A DNA stretch of 64,000 nucleotides from Bacteroidota bacterium (GTDB lineage Bacteria; Bacteroidota; Ignavibacteria; Ignavibacteriales; Ignavibacteriaceae). This document shows, piece by piece, positions 7,702 to 22,050 of this stretch. Where the stretch lies: the NCBI GenBank assembly GCA_020161395.1, contig JAIUOE010000006.1:1-64000 (forward strand), read 5' to 3'. A program made the translations under genes and the position numbers. The notes below the pieces were generated by a model. The model saw only the letters and a list, made by a program, of their open reading frames with translations. It was not told where the DNA came from and did not search any database. The first letter of the stretch is position 1. Each line of letters starts with the position of its first letter.

Positions 7702-9579
7702 ATGCACGAAGGAGGATTTTTCTATCAGGCGTTTCTTTACCTTGTAACTGCAGTTGTCACAGTGCCGATTGCAAAGAGGCTGGGGCTCGGATCGGTTCTC
7801 GGTTATCTCATCGGAGGAATTATTATCGGTCCCGCACTCCTCGGACTTGTTGGAAATGAGGGACAGGATATTATGCATTTCGCTGAATTCGGGGTTGTAA
7901 TGATGCTTTTTGTGATCGGATTGGAGCTGGAACCGTCCCTTCTCTGGCGGCTTCGTGCTTCCATTCTCGGAATGGGTGGTCTCCAGATTGGCTTGACCGC
8001 ACTCCTGGCGGGTGGTGTTGCGTTTGCCTTCGGACTGTCTTGGCAAGCATCACTTGCCATCGGATTTACTCTGTCTCTCTCCTCCACAGCAATAGTGATG
8101 CAGACACTTCAGGAAAAAGGACTCATTAAATCAGGGGCGGGCCAAAGCTCCTTTTCCGTGCTGCTTTTTCAGGACATCGCAGTCATCCCGATACTTGCGA
8201 TATTTCCTCTTCTCGCCACCACAAACACAACAGCGCCTGTAAATGCACATCCTTCATTCATGGAAACACTTCCGGCATGGCTGCAGACGCTTTTTGTTAT
8301 CGGCGCAGTAGGGGTGATAGTTCTCGCAGGGAAATATCTCTTGAATCATGTTTTCAGAATAGTCGCAAAAACCGCGATGCGTGAAATTTTTACGGCGATG
8401 GTCCTCCTTTTGGTCATCGGTATTGCGTTGTTGATGAACTTTGTGGGTTTAAGTCCCGCGCTTGGTGCATTTGTTGCGGGGGTCGTGCTTGCAAACAGCG
8501 AGTACAGGCACGAACTCGAGAGTGACATTGATCCTTTTAAGGGATTGCTGTTGGGGCTGTTTTTTATATCCGTGGGTGCGAGCATCAACTTCGGTTTGAT
8601 CACAGGGCAGCCGGTTACAATTCTGCTCCTTACTTTCGGTTTGATGCTGACAAAAGCTGCGGTTGTTTTTGCGATCGGGAAGATTTTCCGTCTGGGAAAT
8701 GGCGAAAGTTCAATATTTGCAGTCGCCCTTGCTCAGGTGGGAGAGTTCGCGTTTGTACTCTTCTCCTTCTCATCTTCACTTGGGATTCTTGACTCCAATA
8801 CCACGGGAATTCTGACTGCTGTTGTGGCAATCAGCATGGCACTTACACCTTTTATCTTTACACTCAACGAAAAAGTTATTCTGCCGTTTCTCTCCCGCTC
8901 CACAATAAAACCCGAACGGGATGAGGATAAAATCGAGGAAAAAGGTAATGTGATAATCGCAGGGTTCGGCAGATTCGGTAATACCGCAGGAAGGTTCCTC
9001 AGGGCTAACGGTATTTTCCCGACCGTTATCGACAACGATTCGGATCGTGTGGAGACACTCCGAAAACTCGGAATCAAGGTGTATTACGGAGAACCCACCC
9101 GCCACGATCTCCTCCATGCAGCAGGGGCTGAAGACACGAAAATTATAATTATTGCACTCGATATCCCCGAAAAAGTGCTTGAAATGGTGCACACAGTTAA
9201 AAAACACTTTCCTCATGCAAAAATTCTCGCGAGGGCATACGACAGATCCGATGCCTACGAGTTGATGGATGCCGGAGTTGATAAAGTTTACCGGGAAACA
9301 CTTGACACCTCATTAAGGATGGGTGCGGATACACTAAAATATCTCGGATACAGGGCGTATCAAACCGAAAGGATGAGCCACATCTTCTTCAGACACGATG
9401 AACAGAATCTGAAGGAACTGGCTGCCCACAGAAAGGACAGGTCGGAATATCTCTCCGCTGCGAGACAGGCTATCGAGGAACTGGAAGAAATAATAAAGGA
9501 AGATTTTAAAGATACAGATATCAGCAGGGATGCCGGTTGGGATTCCGAATCGCTCAGGGAGGAATTCGGAAAATCCTGA
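7702..9579 (+). CDS. KefB/KefC-type K+/H+ antiporter with TrkA-N domain
   Basis: A 625-residue inner-membrane CPA2 transporter. Twelve or so membrane segments occupy residues 1-395, with the family signatures GLELEPSLLW and GAFVAGVVLANSEYRHELESD. A cytosolic Rossmann TrkA-N domain follows (GFGRFG at about 420), then a charged C-terminal tail. Kef systems release K+ and acidify the cytoplasm during electrophile stress and are gated by glutathione and its adducts. Whether this organism uses glutathione or another thiol cannot be seen here. The gene lies one base after the KefF-like gene. Confidence 0.88.
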   Translation: MHEGGFFYQAFLYLVTAVVTVPIAKRLGLGSVLGYLIGGIIIGPALLGLVGNEGQDIMHFAEFGVVMMLFVIGLELEPSLLWRLRASILGMGGLQIGLTALLAGGVAFAFGLSWQASLAIGFTLSLSSTAIVMQTLQEKGLIKSGAGQSSFSVLLFQDIAVIPILAIFPLLATTNTTAPVNAHPSFMETLPAWLQTLFVIGAVGVIVLAGKYLLNHVFRIVAKTAMREIFTAMVLLLVIGIALLMNFVGLSPALGAFVAGVVLANSEYRHELESDIDPFKGLLLGLFFISVGASINFGLITGQPVTILLLTFGLMLTKAAVVFAIGKIFRLGNGESSIFAVALAQVGEFAFVLFSFSSSLGILDSNTTGILTAVVAISMALTPFIFTLNEKVILPFLSRSTIKPERDEDKIEEKGNVIIAGFGRFGNTAGRFLRANGIFPTVIDNDSDRVETLRKLGIKVYYGEPTRHDLLHAAGAEDTKIIIIALDIPEKVLEMVHTVKKHFPHAKILARAYDRSDAYELMDAGVDKVYRETLDTSLRMGADTLKYLGYRAYQTERMSHIFFRHDEQNLKELAAHRKDRSEYLSAARQAIEELEEIIKEDFKDTDISRDAGWDSESLREEFGKS

Positions 9580-9646
9580 GATTTGAATGCTCTTGCATAT
9601 CTGCCCGGAAAAGAGTAATTTGCAGGAGGAAAACAACCAAATTCAG

Positions 9647-9979
9647 ATGAAGAAATTTAATAATTCGCTGTTGATTGTAATATATCTTGTTTCCGGACTC
9701 CTGGCGGGTTCGGCAAGCGGATTATTGTTGTCTTCCTCGCAGATTACCATCTCGACTACGAAGGGAAACCCCCGGACTCAGTACTTCACTTCCGCGAAAA
9801 TTCCGACTCACATCGCCCCTGCCTCCTTCACGGAAATCGATGTTCATGATTTTTGTACGGGAATTGAAACACCTGATACAGACCCGGTAATCTTTCGGCA
9901 GGTAGAGTCCGGACTCCGTTTCCAGGCTCCAATTCTTACACTTCCATTAAATAAAGCCCCGCCCTTTATTCTCTCTTAG
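9647..9979 (+). CDS. Small membrane-anchored or secreted protein, unknown
   Basis: A 110-residue protein I do not recognise. It starts MKKFNNS, followed by one hydrophobic segment (about residues 7-28) that could be an anchor or an uncleaved signal, then a polar region of about 80 residues without obvious motifs. AGGAGG lies 17 bases before this ATG, which is rather far. An earlier ATG at 9587 would add 20 hydrophilic residues and hide the signal-like start. It follows the KefC-type gene by 67 bp and could be cotranscribed. Confidence 0.45.
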   Translation: MKKFNNSLLIVIYLVSGLLAGSASGLLLSSSQITISTTKGNPRTQYFTSAKIPTHIAPASFTEIDVHDFCTGIETPDTDPVIFRQVESGLRFQAPILTLPLNKAPPFILS

Positions 9980-10075
9980 AACTTATCGTTAATTAATTTT
10001 TTTCGGACGATCCCGTTTGAGGTGCATAATGCCGCATTCCGTTCGTTCCGTAATTTAAACTTAAGAGAGATTAAT

Positions 10076-10183
10076 ATGAAAACTGAAGAAAAAGATGATT
10101 CAGGCATCTATGGCACGGTATTATTTGTAGTGCTTGGCGTTGGAGTAGTGCTCCTTTTATTAAAAGCAGTAATAGGATTTTAA
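10076..10183 (+). CDS. 35-residue single-span membrane peptide
   Basis: A short ORF: acidic N-terminus (MKTEEKDDSG), then one strong hydrophobic helix (about residues 13-35) ending in GF. Its stop is one base before the start of a second tiny ORF of the same kind, and AGAGA lies about six bases before the ATG. Tandem tiny single-span proteins of this sort are often accessory subunits of transporters or oxidases. The family was not recognised. Confidence rests on clean membrane-helix character and spacing. Confidence 0.45.
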   Translation: MKTEEKDDSGIYGTVLFVVLGVGVVLLLLKAVIGF

Positions 10184-10184
10184 A

Positions 10185-10289
10185 ATGGAAACATCATCCC
10201 TCATTTTAATGGTTACTGTGTGGGTTGTTGTGATTTCATTTCTCACATATTTCCTTAGAAAAGCAGTGAAAACACAGAAAAAAGAGTGA
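10185..10289 (+). CDS. 34-residue single-span membrane peptide, transporter-small-subunit-like
   Basis: The ORF starts METSSLILM and continues with one membrane helix and a basic tail (RKAVKTQKKE). The MxTSxxIxM start followed by a single helix recalls the tiny MetS-type accessory subunits of NSS-family sodium symporters, but no such transporter is in this window, so the likeness is only suggestive. It begins one base after the previous tiny ORF stops. A further ORF of 43 codons overlaps its stop as TGATG (10289) but lacks clear coding character. Confidence 0.4.
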   Translation: METSSLILMVTVWVVVISFLTYFLRKAVKTQKKE

Positions 10290-10395
10290 TGGCTTTACAG
10301 GAGTTTCCAAATGATGTATCATTTCCGGGATATTTTCTGAATGAATTGAGAATTATGTTTCAAAACATGATTCAACAATTTAGGAGCAAGGTTTT

Positions 10396-10749
10396 ATGGA
10401 CCCGTTGGAAAATCTGATTAACTACATCACCCGTGATACTGTTTTGTTTGCGGCGGTGCAGGCGATGGTAATCATCCCTGCACTCGTCTCAATAATTTAT
10501 GAGTTCAACTCGAGTAAAAAAAGGAAAATCATCCCCGGGGAAACCCTGCCTTCAACGGAAAGTAAAACCCCCGACCCGTCCATCCGCCTTCAAAAGGTTT
10601 TGTACCCCGCCACTTTAATATTTTTCGCAGCAGTCTGCTTCGCAAATGATGAGATAGCCGGTCACCGGATTTTCTGGCTTGCGCTCGATTTCGGGCTGGT
10701 TACATGGTTGCTCCTGTTTAGCCGGTGGGTGAGTGAGAGATTCGTGTAG
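10396..10749 (+). CDS. Three-span membrane protein, unknown
   Basis: A 117-residue protein with about three hydrophobic segments (residues 14-36, 70-86 and 92-110) separated by a Lys/Pro-rich cytoplasmic loop (SSKKRKIIPG onward). No motif was recognised. GGAGC lies about nine bases before the ATG. It closes the run of small membrane ORFs that follows the Kef pair; a shared operon is possible but no partner is evident. Confidence 0.5.
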   Translation: MDPLENLINYITRDTVLFAAVQAMVIIPALVSIIYEFNSSKKRKIIPGETLPSTESKTPDPSIRLQKVLYPATLIFFAAVCFANDEIAGHRIFWLALDFGLVTWLLLFSRWVSERFV

Positions 10750-10812
10750 TTAGAGCCGCTATGCAGTAGTGTATCAAAAGCTATTATTTACATTTGTCGA
10801 TTGCGGGGATTA

Positions 10813-10834
10813 TGTGATTATTTTAAAAATCACA
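10813..10834. promoter_or_regulatory. 7-bp inverted repeat (TGTGATT-N8-AATCACA)
   Basis: A perfect 7-bp inverted repeat with an 8-base AT centre lies about 45 bp upstream of a candidate promoter. It could bind a regulator or form a weak hairpin. The spacing does not match a CRP/FNR site. The rest of the 319-bp gap between 10749 and 11069 holds no gene that I can see. Confidence 0.3.
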
Positions 10835-10860
10835 TCCTGCCCGATTGACGAAAGATATAT

Positions 10861-17623: not shown

Positions 17624-18469
17624 ATGACTACTGCAGTAATTGGAATTGGACTTATAGGCGGATCGCTTGCCCTTGATTTAAAGAGGAGCGGATTCAGCAG
17701 GCATATCATTGGAGTGGAAAGAGACAGGAATCATGCATATGAGGCGATGGAACTGGGACTCGTAGATGAGATAATGTCACTTGAAGAAGCCGTTTTAAAA
17801 TCATCACTCATCATTATTGCTGTTCCGGTGGATGCCTCAATTGCGGTGCTTGAGCAAGTAATGAAATCCGTTACACATCAAGTGGTAACCGATGTCGGGT
17901 CAACAAAGGAGCTGATTGTTAAATCGCTGGTGGCTCTCCCGAACAGGGGGCGATTCGTAGCCGCACATCCCATTTGGGGTACTGAAAAAAGCGGACCTTC
18001 AGCAGCACAGCCGGGTGGTTTTAACGGGCGGATAACCGTAATCTGTGACAGGGAAAAATGTGACAAAGATGCACTTCAAACAGTTGAAGCAATGTATGAT
18101 GCGCTCGGGATGAAAAAAATCTACATGGATGCAACGAGTCACGATGTTCATGCCGCATATGTCAGTCATATCTCACACATCACTTCCTTTGCACTTGCAC
18201 TCTCGGTGCTTGAGAAGGAAAAAGAGGTGGATACCATTTTTCAGCTTGCCGGCGCAGGTTTTGAAAGCACGGTCAGACTGGCGAAAAGTTCCCCGGACAC
18301 ATGGGTTCCTATCTTTGCACAAAACCGGGACAATCTGCTTGAAGTTTTAACAGAACAGATCGACCAGTTGAGTCTGATGAAGAATCTTCTCGAAAAAAAG
18401 GACTACAGGAAGTTTTACAAACTTATCGAGAAGGCAAATGAGATCAGAAAAGTACTTAATCGTGAATAA
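17624..18469 (+). CDS. tyrA: Prephenate dehydrogenase
   Basis: A 281-residue cytoplasmic enzyme that oxidatively decarboxylates prephenate to 4-hydroxyphenylpyruvate, the committed step to tyrosine. The N-terminal NAD-binding motif GIGLIGGSLALDLK is followed by IIIAVPVDA. The conserved HPIWGTEKSGP segment near residue 108 and the helical dimerisation domain (SHISHITSFALAL, AGAGFESTVRLA) complete the family pattern. No ACT domain is present, so tyrosine feedback through ACT is not expected. It is 94 bp ahead of a histidine kinase gene and 2.5 kb ahead of the DAHP synthase gene. Confidence 0.88.
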   Translation: MTTAVIGIGLIGGSLALDLKRSGFSRHIIGVERDRNHAYEAMELGLVDEIMSLEEAVLKSSLIIIAVPVDASIAVLEQVMKSVTHQVVTDVGSTKELIVKSLVALPNRGRFVAAHPIWGTEKSGPSAAQPGGFNGRITVICDREKCDKDALQTVEAMYDALGMKKIYMDATSHDVHAAYVSHISHITSFALALSVLEKEKEVDTIFQLAGAGFESTVRLAKSSPDTWVPIFAQNRDNLLEVLTEQIDQLSLMKNLLEKKDYRKFYKLIEKANEIRKVLNRE

Positions 18470-18562: not shown

Positions 18563-20695
18563 ATGCTTTTTCTGTTCCGCATCCTCTCTATTTTGATTTT
18601 ACTTGTAACCGTCACCTCTGCCCAGGTTTCTGAAGAGCTTGAGAAAGCTTATGCCACAAAAGAAAATGACACTGTCTGGGTTAACAAAATACTCCTGCTC
18701 ACCGCTGATGAACTTTCTAAAAATCTGAAAGGGACAATCGGCTACATTTCCACGACAAGAGAAATCGCAAAAAAACTTAAACATCAAAAAGGTGTTTTTG
18801 AAGCGACCATCCAAATATCTGAATACTACCGGTACACACGGCAACTCGACTCCGCAGACCGGTTCATAAAAGAATTAATTGAGCTTGGAGACAGACTTGG
18901 TGAACCGGCATTAAGATGTCGTGCAATGATTGCAAAAGGGCTTCTTCTCTCCGCAAAAGGGAGAAGTAAAGATGCGATCGATGTTTACAACGAGGCTGTT
19001 TCCATAATCGACACGAGTAAACATCAAAAACTGTATGCAGCTCTCCTCACTAACAGAGCAAACGACAGAAGCAAAGTGGATCAGAGTGAGGGGGCAGTCC
19101 ATGACTATATAGAAGCCGCTACCATTTTCGAGAAGACCGGTGAGCTGGCGTCGCTGGCAATAACTCTAAATAATATTGCACTCGAACTGGGAAGACTTGG
19201 CAGATACCGCGATGCTGTAGACTATTACGACAGGGCTATCGAAATTAATGAAAAGATCCAAAACTATCATGATCTTGCTCTGTGCTACTCGAACGCAGCC
19301 AGTTCTCTCAGAAGTCTTGGTTTACTCGACACCGCTCTTGTGTACTGCAAAAAGGCGATAGAGATTGCTTTGAAACGGGGATTTAATTTTACCCTGGCAC
19401 AAAGTTATATGAACGCAGGAAGTATTTATGAGTCGAAAAAAGATCCGGCAAATGCTGAGCTGTGGTTTAAAAAATCGATCGAAATATGTTACAGTGAGGG
19501 GATAATCTACGGCTTGATGGTCAACATGTCAGCACTCGGAGGTCTTTATGATAAATCCGGTCAGACCATGAAGGCTATTGCACATTACGACAGTGCCTTG
19601 AAATATGCGGAAAAGCTGGAGAGCAGATCAGACATCAACGACATCCATGGAAAACTTGCGGTGGTTCTGGCAAAAGCAGGAGATTACAAGCAGGCTTACA
19701 AATATCTCAGACTGTTCCATGATTACTCCGACAGTGTCAAGGGTGGTGAGACTGCCGCAAAGATAGTTGAGCTGGACAAGAAGTATCAAACAGAGAAACA
19801 GGCTGCCGAAATTGCACGGTTGGAACAGCTTTCTTCAAATCAATTGCTGATTATTATAAGTCTCATTGCTGTTGCAGCAGCATCCATTTCCATCATCTTT
19901 TTCTTCAGGTACAAGAGAAAAAAAGCGGAAGAGGCGGAAATAAAAGCAGCAAGGCATGCCAAAGAGATTGAAAAATTCTCGGAAGAGCTCAAAGAATTAA
20001 ATGCAACCAAAGATAAATTGTTTTCATTGATCTCGCATGACATAAGGGGTCCTTTCACACCCATTCTTCTTTATTCCGAGGAACTTGCAGCAAATGTTGA
20101 CAATCTAAGCAGGGATGAAATTGCTCAGATGTCGTCGGATATCAACAGTGCCGCAGCAACCAATTACTTTCTGATTAGCAATTTACTCGACTGGGCGAGA
20201 ACACAGACCGGCAGGATTCAGTTTAATCCTGAGAATCTCCACCTTGCGGAATTGATAGCAGATGTCAGGCGAAATCTTAGCTTTGCATTCAGAAGCAAGA
20301 ATATCAATCTGGAAGTGGAAATACCTCATGATACAGTAATCATGGGTGACCGGACAATGGTAAACTCGATATTTCAGAATATTATCCAGAATGCAATTAA
20401 ATTTTCCGGGGACGGGAGTGAAATAAGGGTGAGGGGACATCTTGAGGGAAACATGATTCGAATCTCGATCTCCGATAATGGAACCGGTATGTCCAAGGAG
20501 ACTGCCGGGAGTCTGTTCGGAACCGCCGGTGTGACACCCGGCAGAGGAACAAAAAATGAAGGCGGAACAGGACTTGGAATGAGCATCAGTGCCGATTTTG
20601 TTGAGAGACACTCAGGGTCAATAAGTGTTGAAAGCACAGTTGGAAAAGGGACCACAGTAACCTTTACGCTTCCTGTTGCGGAAACCGCTGTCTGA
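18563..20695 (+). CDS. TPR-repeat sensor histidine kinase
   Basis: A 710-residue protein. A signal peptide or first helix (1-21) is followed by a periplasmic array of about nine TPR-like repeats (about 40-400). A membrane helix (about 428-448), a coiled coil, and a kinase core follow. Its H box is SHDIRGP (His492), the N box is NIIQNAIKFS near 608, then DNGTGM and GGTGLGM. There is no receiver domain and no response regulator beside it, so its partner is elsewhere. TPR-HK proteins of this shape are common in Bacteroidota. A link to aromatic metabolism is suggested only by position between tyrA and the DAHP synthase gene. Confidence 0.85.
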   Translation: MLFLFRILSILILLVTVTSAQVSEELEKAYATKENDTVWVNKILLLTADELSKNLKGTIGYISTTREIAKKLKHQKGVFEATIQISEYYRYTRQLDSADRFIKELIELGDRLGEPALRCRAMIAKGLLLSAKGRSKDAIDVYNEAVSIIDTSKHQKLYAALLTNRANDRSKVDQSEGAVHDYIEAATIFEKTGELASLAITLNNIALELGRLGRYRDAVDYYDRAIEINEKIQNYHDLALCYSNAASSLRSLGLLDTALVYCKKAIEIALKRGFNFTLAQSYMNAGSIYESKKDPANAELWFKKSIEICYSEGIIYGLMVNMSALGGLYDKSGQTMKAIAHYDSALKYAEKLESRSDINDIHGKLAVVLAKAGDYKQAYKYLRLFHDYSDSVKGGETAAKIVELDKKYQTEKQAAEIARLEQLSSNQLLIIISLIAVAAASISIIFFFRYKRKKAEEAEIKAARHAKEIEKFSEELKELNATKDKLFSLISHDIRGPFTPILLYSEELAANVDNLSRDEIAQMSSDINSAAATNYFLISNLLDWARTQTGRIQFNPENLHLAELIADVRRNLSFAFRSKNINLEVEIPHDTVIMGDRTMVNSIFQNIIQNAIKFSGDGSEIRVRGHLEGNMIRISISDNGTGMSKETAGSLFGTAGVTPGRGTKNEGGTGLGMSISADFVERHSGSISVESTVGKGTTVTFTLPVAETAV

Positions 20696-20777
20696 TGTAC
20701 AACGCCTTTGGAAAAGGGGTAAAAAAGAGTTGGACAAAAAAAGAGGGCAATATTTTTTTACCGCCACAAAAAAATCT

Positions 20778-20809
20778 CTTGCATCTGAATTTGAGATAAT
20801 ATATATTTG
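20778..20809 (+). promoter_or_regulatory. Promoter candidate for the DAHP synthase leader
   Basis: CTTG (20778-20781), 20 bases, then TATATTTG (20802-20809) fit the Bacteroidota TTTG / TAnnTTTG pattern. The box ends three bases before the leader ATG, so transcription from it would give a nearly leaderless mRNA. Alternatively the real promoter is farther upstream. Confidence 0.45.
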
Positions 20810-20812
20810 TCC

Positions 20813-20893
20813 ATGATAAATCTGAAAAAAGCCACAAATACCTCCTTTTACTTTTACTGGTTTTACTTTACCGGTCGCGGGTGGCTTTTGTAA
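20813..20893 (+). CDS. Aromatic leader peptide of DAHP synthase attenuator
   Basis: A 26-codon ORF. After a lysine- and threonine-containing start it has eight consecutive aromatic codons (F Y F Y W F Y F, codons 12-19), and a further Trp at codon 24 before TAA. Such a run is very unlikely by chance and is what is expected of a leader peptide that senses Phe, Tyr and Trp together, the three end products of the DAHP synthase pathway. No Shine-Dalgarno is visible; initiation may be leaderless. The stop codon overlaps the end of RNA segment 2 of the attenuator. Confidence 0.8.
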   Translation: MINLKKATNTSFYFYWFYFTGRGWLL

Positions 20894-20957
20894 AATTTGA
20901 ATGTTATCATAAGAAATTTATAAATCACCCGGACTAAACAGCCGGGTTTTTTCGTTT
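20827..20957 (+). promoter_or_regulatory. Transcription attenuator of the DAHP synthase gene
   Basis: Four segments can be paired by eye. Segment 1 AAAAGCCAC (20827-20835) pairs with segment 2 GTGGCTTTT (20881-20889). Within segment 2, CGGGTG (20878-20883) pairs instead with segment 3 CACCCG (20926-20931). Segment 3 CCCGG (20928-20932) pairs with segment 4 CCGGG (20942-20946), which is followed by T residues. A ribosome stalled on the aromatic codons (20846-20869) would mask segment 1 and free the 2:3 antiterminator. A ribosome reaching the stop would mask segment 2 and allow the 3:4 terminator. This is the classical trp/phe-type arrangement. Confidence 0.8.
20928..20957 (+). terminator. Intrinsic terminator within the leader
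   Basis: CCCGG-a-CT-AAAC-AG-CCGGG gives a 7-bp stem with one bulged A and a four-base loop, followed by TTTTTTCGTTTTT. It lies 29 bp before the DAHP synthase start and so would stop transcription before the gene. Confidence 0.85.
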
Positions 20958-20985
20958 TTAAACCATTAACAGATGCAGAAATAAG

Positions 20986-22050
20986 ATGGAAACATTGTTG
21001 AAAAAGAGGCCCCTTATAATTTCGGGTCCATGCAGTGCTGAAACAGAGGAGCAGGTTTTGGAGACTGCCACACAACTTGCAAAGCTTGGTGTTGTGGATG
21101 TAATGCGTGCCGGAATCTGGAAACCGAGAACGAGACCGGGTACATTTGAGGGTGTTGGAACCAAAGGGCTGCCCTGGCTTCAGCAGGCGAAAAAGATAAC
21201 CGGCTTCCCCCTTGCGGTCGAGGTTGCAACCACAAAGCAGGTTGAGGACGCACTTCATTTCGATGTTGATATTCTTTGGATTGGTGCCCGGTCTGTCGTC
21301 AATCCGATGAGTGTTCAGGAGATAGCGAATGCCTTGAGAGGCACCAATGTCCCTGTGTTTATAAAAAATCCGATGAACCCCGATATCGAGTTGTGGAGCG
21401 GTGCAGTGGAGAGAATCGGTAATGCAGGTGTTACAAATATCGGACTGATACACCGGGGATTCAGCACCTACGGAAATCTTGAATACAGAAATGCCCCCAT
21501 CTGGCATCTGGCAATCGAGATGAAAAGAAGATACAGCGATCTGATGATGATCTGCGATCCTGCTCATATCTGTGGCAGAAGAGACATACTTAAAGATGTG
21601 TCGCAAAAAGCAATTGATCTCGACTTTGACGGTTTGATGATAGAAAGCCACCGCGATCCTGATAAAGCGTGGAGCGATGCGAAGCAACAGGTGACACCCG
21701 CTGATCTGAAAATACTGCTCGATCAACTGGTCTGGAGGGATTCAACCAGCGAAAATATTTCACAGGATTCCCCGCTTGAAGAGTACAGAGAGGTAATCGA
21801 TCAGATAGATGATGAACTGATGCAGTTGCTCGCTAAAAGAATGAACCTTGCTGCAAAGATTGGTGAATACAAGAAGGAAAAGAAGATTACCATACTTCAG
21901 ACCAACAGATGGAATGAAATTCTTGAGAAGGGGATCAATCTGGGTGTGAAACTTGGTTTAAGCAACGAATTTGTCGCCGGTTTCCTCGAGGTGGTTCACA
22001 TGGAAAGCATCAATCATCAGAACAGGATTATGAATTCCCAAGCCGGTTGA
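20986..22050 (+). CDS. Bifunctional DAHP synthase / chorismate mutase
   Basis: A 354-residue enzyme. Residues 1-255 are a type I beta DAHP synthase (GPCSAE, KPRTRPGTFEG, WIGARSVVNP, FIKNPMNP, IHRGFSTYGN, CDPAHICG, IESHRDPD), condensing PEP with erythrose 4-phosphate. Residues about 262-350 are an AroQ-type chorismate mutase helix bundle (REVIDQIDDELMQLLAKRM). This fusion order is typical of Bacteroidota, where the mutase domain also mediates prephenate feedback. The gene is preceded by the aromatic leader and terminator, and its stop overlaps the convergent kinase gene by 23 bp. It appears monocistronic. Confidence 0.92.
   Translation: METLLKKRPLIISGPCSAETEEQVLETATQLAKLGVVDVMRAGIWKPRTRPGTFEGVGTKGLPWLQQAKKITGFPLAVEVATTKQVEDALHFDVDILWIGARSVVNPMSVQEIANALRGTNVPVFIKNPMNPDIELWSGAVERIGNAGVTNIGLIHRGFSTYGNLEYRNAPIWHLAIEMKRRYSDLMMICDPAHICGRRDILKDVSQKAIDLDFDGLMIESHRDPDKAWSDAKQQVTPADLKILLDQLVWRDSTSENISQDSPLEEYREVIDQIDDELMQLLAKRMNLAAKIGEYKKEKKITILQTNRWNEILEKGINLGVKLGLSNEFVAGFLEVVHMESINHQNRIMNSQAG

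Follow-up and report, generated by a model that had tools for sequence, protein, structure and literature searches.

A mixed aromatic leader peptide and probable transcription attenuator before DAHP synthase-chorismate mutase genes in Bacteroidota

The gene for a fused DAHP synthase-chorismate mutase (DAHPS-CM) in a stretch of 64,000 nucleotides from an Ignavibacteriaceae genome (contig JAIUOE010000006.1 of assembly GCA_020161395.1; "the window" hereafter) is preceded by an element that we consider, with little doubt, to be a ribosome-mediated transcription attenuator. We observed its sequence parts in the order that such attenuation calls for, their conservation, a selection for aromatic codons that acts at the protein level and a predicted fold switch, and these support the mechanism proposed in the initial annotation of this DNA.

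Results

Leader, strands and terminator in the window

The leader ORF (20813..20893, on the forward strand like all window features given here; ATG at 20813, TAA stop at 20891-20893) encodes the 26-codon peptide MINLKKATNTSFYFYWFYFTGRGWLL. It is a short ORF enriched in codons for the products of the pathway: codons 12-19 (20846..20869) are eight consecutive aromatic codons, F Y F Y W F Y F, which we propose as the sensing run, and a later Trp codon (Trp24) lies at 20882-20884. The ORF, the run and the later Trp are all present where the initial annotation placed them. No second run of eight or more aromatic codons occurs in the six frames of the window, where 0.005 such runs are expected (200 first-order Markov simulations). 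The ORF that starts 92 nt after the leader stop (20986..22050), the proposed regulated gene, matches the profiles PF00793 (DAHP_synth_1, E 2.8e-36) and PF01817 (CM_2, E 1.1e-21), which identify it as a DAHP synthase-chorismate mutase (type II) fusion.

The three alternative pairings that had been drawn were likewise found in place. Strand 1 (AAAAGCCAC, 20827..20835) pairs with GTGGCTTTT (20881-20889) in strand 2 (CGGGTGGCTTTT, 20878..20889), which forms the end of the leader ORF. The antiterminator 2:3 joins CGGGTG (20878-20883) to CACCCG (20926-20931), and strand 3 (CACCCGG, 20926..20932) is common to it and to the terminator 3:4, in which ACCCGG (20927-20932) pairs with CCGGGT (20942-20947) and a T-run follows (20947-20952). 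Strand 4 and its U-run (20942..20952) complete an intrinsic terminator between the leader and DAHPS-CM, with a hairpin of -11.0 kcal/mol that ends 38 nt before the gene start. Compared with shuffled sequences, the 2:3 segment (20871-20935) is the most unusual (-22.4 kcal/mol, z -4.3, 0/200 shuffles as good), followed by the terminator segment (20904-20958; -11.0 kcal/mol, z -2.2, 5/200). The 1:2 segment (20813-20906) is unexceptional (z -0.96, 34/200), the 1:2 duplex itself has p 0.04 against shuffles, and the whole segment (20810-20965) has a folding z of -2.38.

A simple terminator scan of the forward strand of the window did not list the 3:4 hairpin; the scan allows loops of up to 8 bases and the uninterrupted stem has a 9-base loop. 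The Rfam leader families, whose names include Trp_leader and Phe_leader, gave no match at the gathering score in the window, none in 20750-21010 at E up to 10, and none at the gathering score in 10 of the relatives' loci.

Conservation in the genus and family

We found the leader directly before DAHPS-CM in three other genomes of the window genus. In the alignment of the four leaders, the upstream box TATATTTG, AAAAAAGCCAC in strand 1, CGGGTGG in strand 2, CACCCGG in strand 3 and CCGGGTTTTTT, which covers strand 4 and the U-run, are invariant, and the linker is the variable part. The mid-run TGG is kept in all four, and the changes in the aromatic run are one synonymous TAC/TAT exchange and the loss of exactly one codon, in frame, in G001. 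The aromatic run and all four strands are thus retained when the relatives' upstream regions are aligned, as the initial annotation had suggested doing.

Orthologues of DAHPS-CM were detected in 10 of the 58 other genomes searched (best E 1e-107 to 2e-239), the remainder holding distant DAHP synthases only (best E 8e-39 or weaker). Seven of these genomes lie outside the window genus, and an aromatic leader is present in five of them (G014, G015, G025, G029 and G034); in the other two, G009 and G027, the gene lies about 1.1 kb and 60 bases, respectively, from the contig start, so that the operon head falls outside the contig. The leader is followed by prephenate dehydratase (pheA), an aminotransferase and prephenate dehydrogenase (tyrA) in G025, G034, G029 and G014, and by tyrA in G015. 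These gene names come from NCBIfam models for G025, whose first and second proteins score below the curated cut-offs of their best models.

Spread over Bacteroidota

We searched two sets of loci for an ATG-initiated ORF of 12-45 codons outside long ORFs, with at least 7 of 12 codons aromatic and a terminator at most 60 nt from its stop. The even phylum sample, in which 79 of 296 genomes have DAHPS-CM at E up to 1e-90, supplied 82 loci from 75 genomes, four genomes already included elsewhere being left out. Leader and terminator were identified upstream of DAHPS-CM at 61/82 of these loci on the sense strand and at 1/82 on the antisense strand, and 21/82 have no leader by this rule. The named-genome set comprises the best 80 of 586 Bacteroidota loci and is biased toward close relatives; here the counts were 57/80 and 0/80. 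The two sets share at least one genome (L094, L151; leaderless by the rule in both). The leaders are kin, so that these counts are not independent events. The initial annotation regarded a pan-aromatic attenuator on DAHP synthase in a Bacteroidota-like genome as notable; finding a leader attenuator is less surprising given how widespread such leaders are in the phylum and that a 5' element of pheA had already been noted in Flavobacteriaceae.

The rule was loosened to 7 of 12 post hoc, after part of the sample had been viewed, as a first rule of at least 6 of 8 aromatic codons missed the Flavobacterium-type leaders (RFYFSNSFYFFF). By the first rule, the 82 loci had 46 leaders and 45 leaders with terminator (antisense 5 and 1). 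When the second rule was applied with no terminator required, the 82 loci gave 63 sense and 10 antisense leaders, and the named set (best 80 of 586) gave 57 and 4. A leader with a GTG start is visible by eye in L141 and was missed by the ATG-only rule. Twelve of the 23 leaderless loci of the named set have less than 3.2 kb of upstream sequence, thus their operon heads may fall outside. For the analyses below we assembled 137 leaders, nine picked from the family of the window and 128 found by the 7/12 rule. Short ORFs that pass only a looser rule were kept outside this set (for example L056 1673, L108 2259, L110 2317 and L085 5761, and also L099 and L111).

Across the 118 positive loci of both sets (one being the best 80 of 586), the leader is followed first by pheA in 113 (tblastn with the G025 proteins). 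The order is pheA-aminotransferase-tyrA-DAHPS in 92, pheA-DAHPS in 17, another pheA-first order in four, tyrA-DAHPS in one and DAHPS alone in four. The last four (L211, L215, L218 and L220) come from four genomes of one other family, with the leader about 210 nt before DAHPS-CM. As this placement occurs both there and in the window, it suggests that the position directly before DAHPS-CM arose more than once.

Tandem units of leader and terminator were detected in 10 loci: five from Chitinophaga (L073, L074, L076, L077 and L083), three from Hymenobacter (L086, L087 and L089), one from Saprospiraceae and one other (L100 and L149). These precede the pheA operon, each leader with its own terminator, and in the five Chitinophaga loci the first leader contains a Trp codon and the second has Phe and Tyr only. 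Three loci (L210, L212 and L216) have Tyr- and Phe-rich codons directly 5' of DAHPS-CM without a leader by the set rule (in L212, read by eye, SYYRNFRTYYRFYWYC and then a stop), and these are perhaps a divergent leader type.

Selection on the aromatic codons

The 12-codon cores of the 137 leaders contain 661 TTN codons, of which 450 are TTT, 208 TTC, three TTA and none TTG. Among differences between related leaders at aromatic positions, 146 of 194 stay aromatic, compared with 21% of all single changes; the related pairs in this count are not independent. Both results indicate that the run is no accidental T-rich tract and that its reading frame matters.

Phe and Tyr swap freely among leaders. 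Trp is depleted, accounting for 50 of 1263 aromatic residues (4.0%) in the 137 leaders as opposed to 12.7% in the long ORFs of the same loci, and it occurs in the 12-codon core of 47 leaders. Together, the interchange and the depletion point to a family that is mainly a Phe/Tyr gauge. Given the depletion, a combined response to Phe, Tyr and Trp is, as far as codon content tells, plausible chiefly for the window genus.

A predicted fold switch

We folded the RNA outside the ribosome footprint at the point before strand 4 is made. The median probability of strand 3 being in the antiterminator over the 137 leaders is 0.95 for a mid-run stall and 0.06 for a ribosome at the stop codon, and 135 leaders switch; in the prediction, the 5' strand of the antiterminator is free in the former state and covered in the latter. 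Compared with 40 shuffles of each leader, the switch has p 0.05 or less in 106/137, where about seven are expected. Strand 3 is in some upstream pairing with a median of 0.50 in the shuffled segments, and the leader of G001, another genome of the window genus, does no better than its shuffles (p 0.3). Equilibrium folding with strand 4 present was dropped as a general test of the switch in favour of folding before strand 4, since it loses the terminator on stalling in only 42/137 leaders. Most leaders would thus need the antiterminator to form first, which is a kinetic assumption.

The window leader switches in both tests, with an equilibrium terminator probability of 0.00 for a stall at the first or middle aromatic codon and 0.99 for a ribosome at the stop. 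A codon-by-codon stall scan with three footprint sizes predicts antitermination at codons 5-17, an intermediate, footprint-dependent outcome at codons 17-19 and termination from codon 20 on, so that read-through is predicted for stalls at aromatic codons 12-17. In this model the aromatic run ends at the position where the fold switches; stalls at codons 5-11 also antiterminate, and folding alone therefore does not mark where the run begins. The later Trp has no sensing role in the model: Trp24 is part of strand 2, where a stall would lead to termination.

Strand 2 binds its own strand 3 with a median of -12.1 kcal/mol, compared with -6.8 kcal/mol for swapped partners, and prefers it over at least 95% of swaps in 84/137 leaders. 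We counted 95 different strand-3 strings to which strands 2 and 4 are both complementary, the 3:4 complementarity being demanded by the search rule and 2:3 being taken from the predicted fold. The protector stem 1:2 is distinct in the window genus; over the leaders as a whole it beats shuffles in 42/132 and is therefore not a general feature.

Predicted transcript start

The box TATATTTG (20802..20809) corresponds to the Bacteroidota -7 consensus TAnnTTTG, is identical in the four leaders of the genus and, as initially described, ends three bases 5' of the leader ATG. Since this box occupies -12 to -5 in Flavobacterium psychrophilum (PMC9723704), transcription is predicted to start at the leader AUG, near 20813-20815. 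A possible -33 element, weak and of three bases only (TTG, 20779..20781), lies 20 nt 5' of the box; a -33 TTTG motif has been described for Bacteroides fragilis (PMC7366714). Scanning 20400-21400 with the sigma-70 consensus gave three weak sites (1.1 in shuffles), none of them this box.

A perfect TAnnTTTG within 60 nt of the ATG is present in 76/137 leaders and in 78/919 ordinary ORFs of the same loci. It lies at most 10 nt from the ATG in 39 of the 76 leaders versus seven of the 78 ORFs (Fisher p 6e-9, kinship ignored), and 13-50 nt away in the other 37 leaders; 61 leaders have no perfect box in this range. A near-leaderless start thus seems to be a repeated trait, common but not universal among the leaders, and we have moderate confidence that the leader is translated in near-leaderless form.

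Setting in the own genome

In the window, the leader is preceded by tyrA (17624-18469) and a TPR-histidine kinase gene (18563-20695). The leader follows tyrA in G003. In G002 the kinase gene lies before tyrA, with 60% identity over 710 residues, and no kinase match was found at E 1e-20 in the stretches of G003 and G001 (loci compared: window 18563-20695, L035 5312-7444, L037 and L036).

The sole prephenate dehydratase match of the own genome falls within a 675-codon protein (L044, G000:C11, reverse strand 8833-10860) with a chorismate mutase-like start and matches to prephenate dehydratase and DAHP synthase, apparently a triple fusion. The 16-kb stretch around its gene contains no aromatic leader with terminator.

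The own genome also encodes a Trp leader, MNLKNTEKSVSTVAKAVRANWWWWHLFQ (ending in RANWWWWHLFQ), with a terminator, on the minus strand from 7344 in L221 (G000:C1:50000-64000). It lies 115 nt before a PF00425 (trpE-like) gene, and the ORFs that follow resemble trpG, D, C, F, B and A in their size and order, as judged by eye. This separate leader means that the genome probably senses Trp separately for the trp branch, and its presence also fits the attenuator reading of the DAHPS-CM leader.

Discussion

We infer the start of transcription, the translation of the leader, termination, the default state and the response to the amino acids as follows. Transcription would start at the leader AUG or a few bases from it. 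With charged tRNAs for Phe and Tyr (here also Trp) plentiful, the ribosome would reach the stop codon and cover strand 2, and the 3:4 hairpin with its U-run would terminate transcription before DAHPS-CM. If aromatic aminoacyl-tRNA is scarce, the ribosome would stall in codons 12-18 and leave strand 2 free, whereupon 2:3 pairing would block the terminator and DAHPS-CM would be transcribed. If the leader is not translated, 1:2 pairing would free strand 3, and termination would be favoured.

Whether the same attenuator senses only Phe and Tyr, or Phe alone, with the Trp codon incidental, is almost an even call. The Trp depletion described above and the restriction of core Trp codons to 47 leaders agree with it, as do the genes that the leader precedes, for the most part pheA and the Phe/Tyr branch where the order was checked, the separate WWWW leader of the own genome, and the aroR leader of Corynebacterium glutamicum, whose Phe-Tyr-Phe motif answers to Phe and not to Tyr (PMC11802643). 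It is opposed by the TGG that the four leaders of the window genus keep in mid-run, at a position where a stall is predicted to antiterminate. The pan-aromatic sensing of the initial annotation may hold in the window genus, which keeps this TGG inside the run (4/4), although Trp is rare across the family.

The hairpin and leader could instead act on translation or RNA stability of the downstream gene, which we judge improbable: the 92 nt between leader stop and gene start would suit such control, whereas the U-run after strand 4, demanded by the search rule and invariant in the genus, and the distance from hairpin to gene in the window speak for transcription termination. Still less probable, to the point that we rejected it, is a small hydrophobic peptide with a function of its own whose terminator the hairpin merely is. 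The leader peptide is indeed hydrophobic, and the peptide peTrpL of Sinorhizobium meliloti acts in trans (PMC7298713), but the leaders retain their aromatic character and the codons of strand 2 as their length and remaining residues change, and the placement is specific to the aromatic pathway, as the sense and antisense counts of the phylum sample show.

Alongside ribosome-mediated attenuation as such, we offer a broader reading only tentatively, at somewhat less than an even chance. It would see here an ancient class of Bacteroidota attenuators in which a mixed run reads the combined charging of tRNA-Phe and tRNA-Tyr, and of tRNA-Trp in the window genus. Members of this class would often be leaderless or near-leaderless, would stand directly before the first enzyme in more than one lineage, and would be doubled in series on one operon in Chitinophaga and Hymenobacter.

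To our knowledge, little has been described of how Bacteroidota control aromatic amino acid synthesis, and a conserved gauge that acts in cis on the entry enzyme and the pheA operon could supply this control. The leaders would give ready reporters of aromatic starvation in this phylum. They also offer a natural test of how ribosomes can initiate on leaderless or near-leaderless leaders quickly enough for coupling to RNA polymerase, and their mixed runs allow one to ask whether a single attenuator integrates several amino acids.

Comparison with known systems

The pheL, pheST and trpL leaders of Escherichia coli carry a 5' UTR and a Shine-Dalgarno sequence. The ilvGMEDA and thr leaders of enterobacteria are multivalent, in that a single leader carries codons for more than one related amino acid, but differ from the window leader in that these are branched-chain or Thr/Ile and not aromatic. 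A comparative survey of attenuation in bacteria by Lopatovskaya et al. (2010; cited in PMC10272879) reportedly extends to Bacteroidetes and may already contain a prediction of the pheA leader. In the open literature searched, no title dealt with an aromatic leader in Bacteroidota; subscription papers were mostly outside that search.

The finding is partly anticipated by work on F. psychrophilum and by C. glutamicum aroR. In F. psychrophilum, strong indications that leader peptides attenuate amino acid operons were reported, together with a structured 5' element of pheA that is conserved in Flavobacteriaceae and has no Rfam hit (PMC9723704). This element likewise stands before pheA, and its description there names no aromatic run or strands, no distribution across the phylum, no placement before DAHPS-CM and no tandem copies. 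Short ORFs in long 5' UTRs of Bacteroides thetaiotaomicron have been described as reminiscent of attenuation leaders (PMC7366714).

E. coli pheL-pheA, pheST and trpL share with the window leader the codons for pathway products and the control by charged tRNA (PMC11802643), but each reads one amino acid and they control pheA, pheST or trp and not a DAHPS-CM fusion. The aroR leader precedes the DAHP synthase gene aroF and is similar in being a mixed Phe/Tyr leader at which stalling enhances transcription; it differs in its short Phe-Tyr-Phe motif, in its response to Phe without a response to Tyr (Neshat et al. 2014, cited in PMC11802643) and in its phylum. The trpL leader of S. meliloti, whose attenuated RNA begins with the start codon of the leader ORF, provides a precedent for a leaderless attenuator, but reads Trp only, has 14 residues and belongs to Alphaproteobacteria (PMC7298713). 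Judged from sequence and predicted folding, we have high confidence in the mechanism class and take the window element to be a genuine, conserved attenuator of a known kind but of uncommon form.
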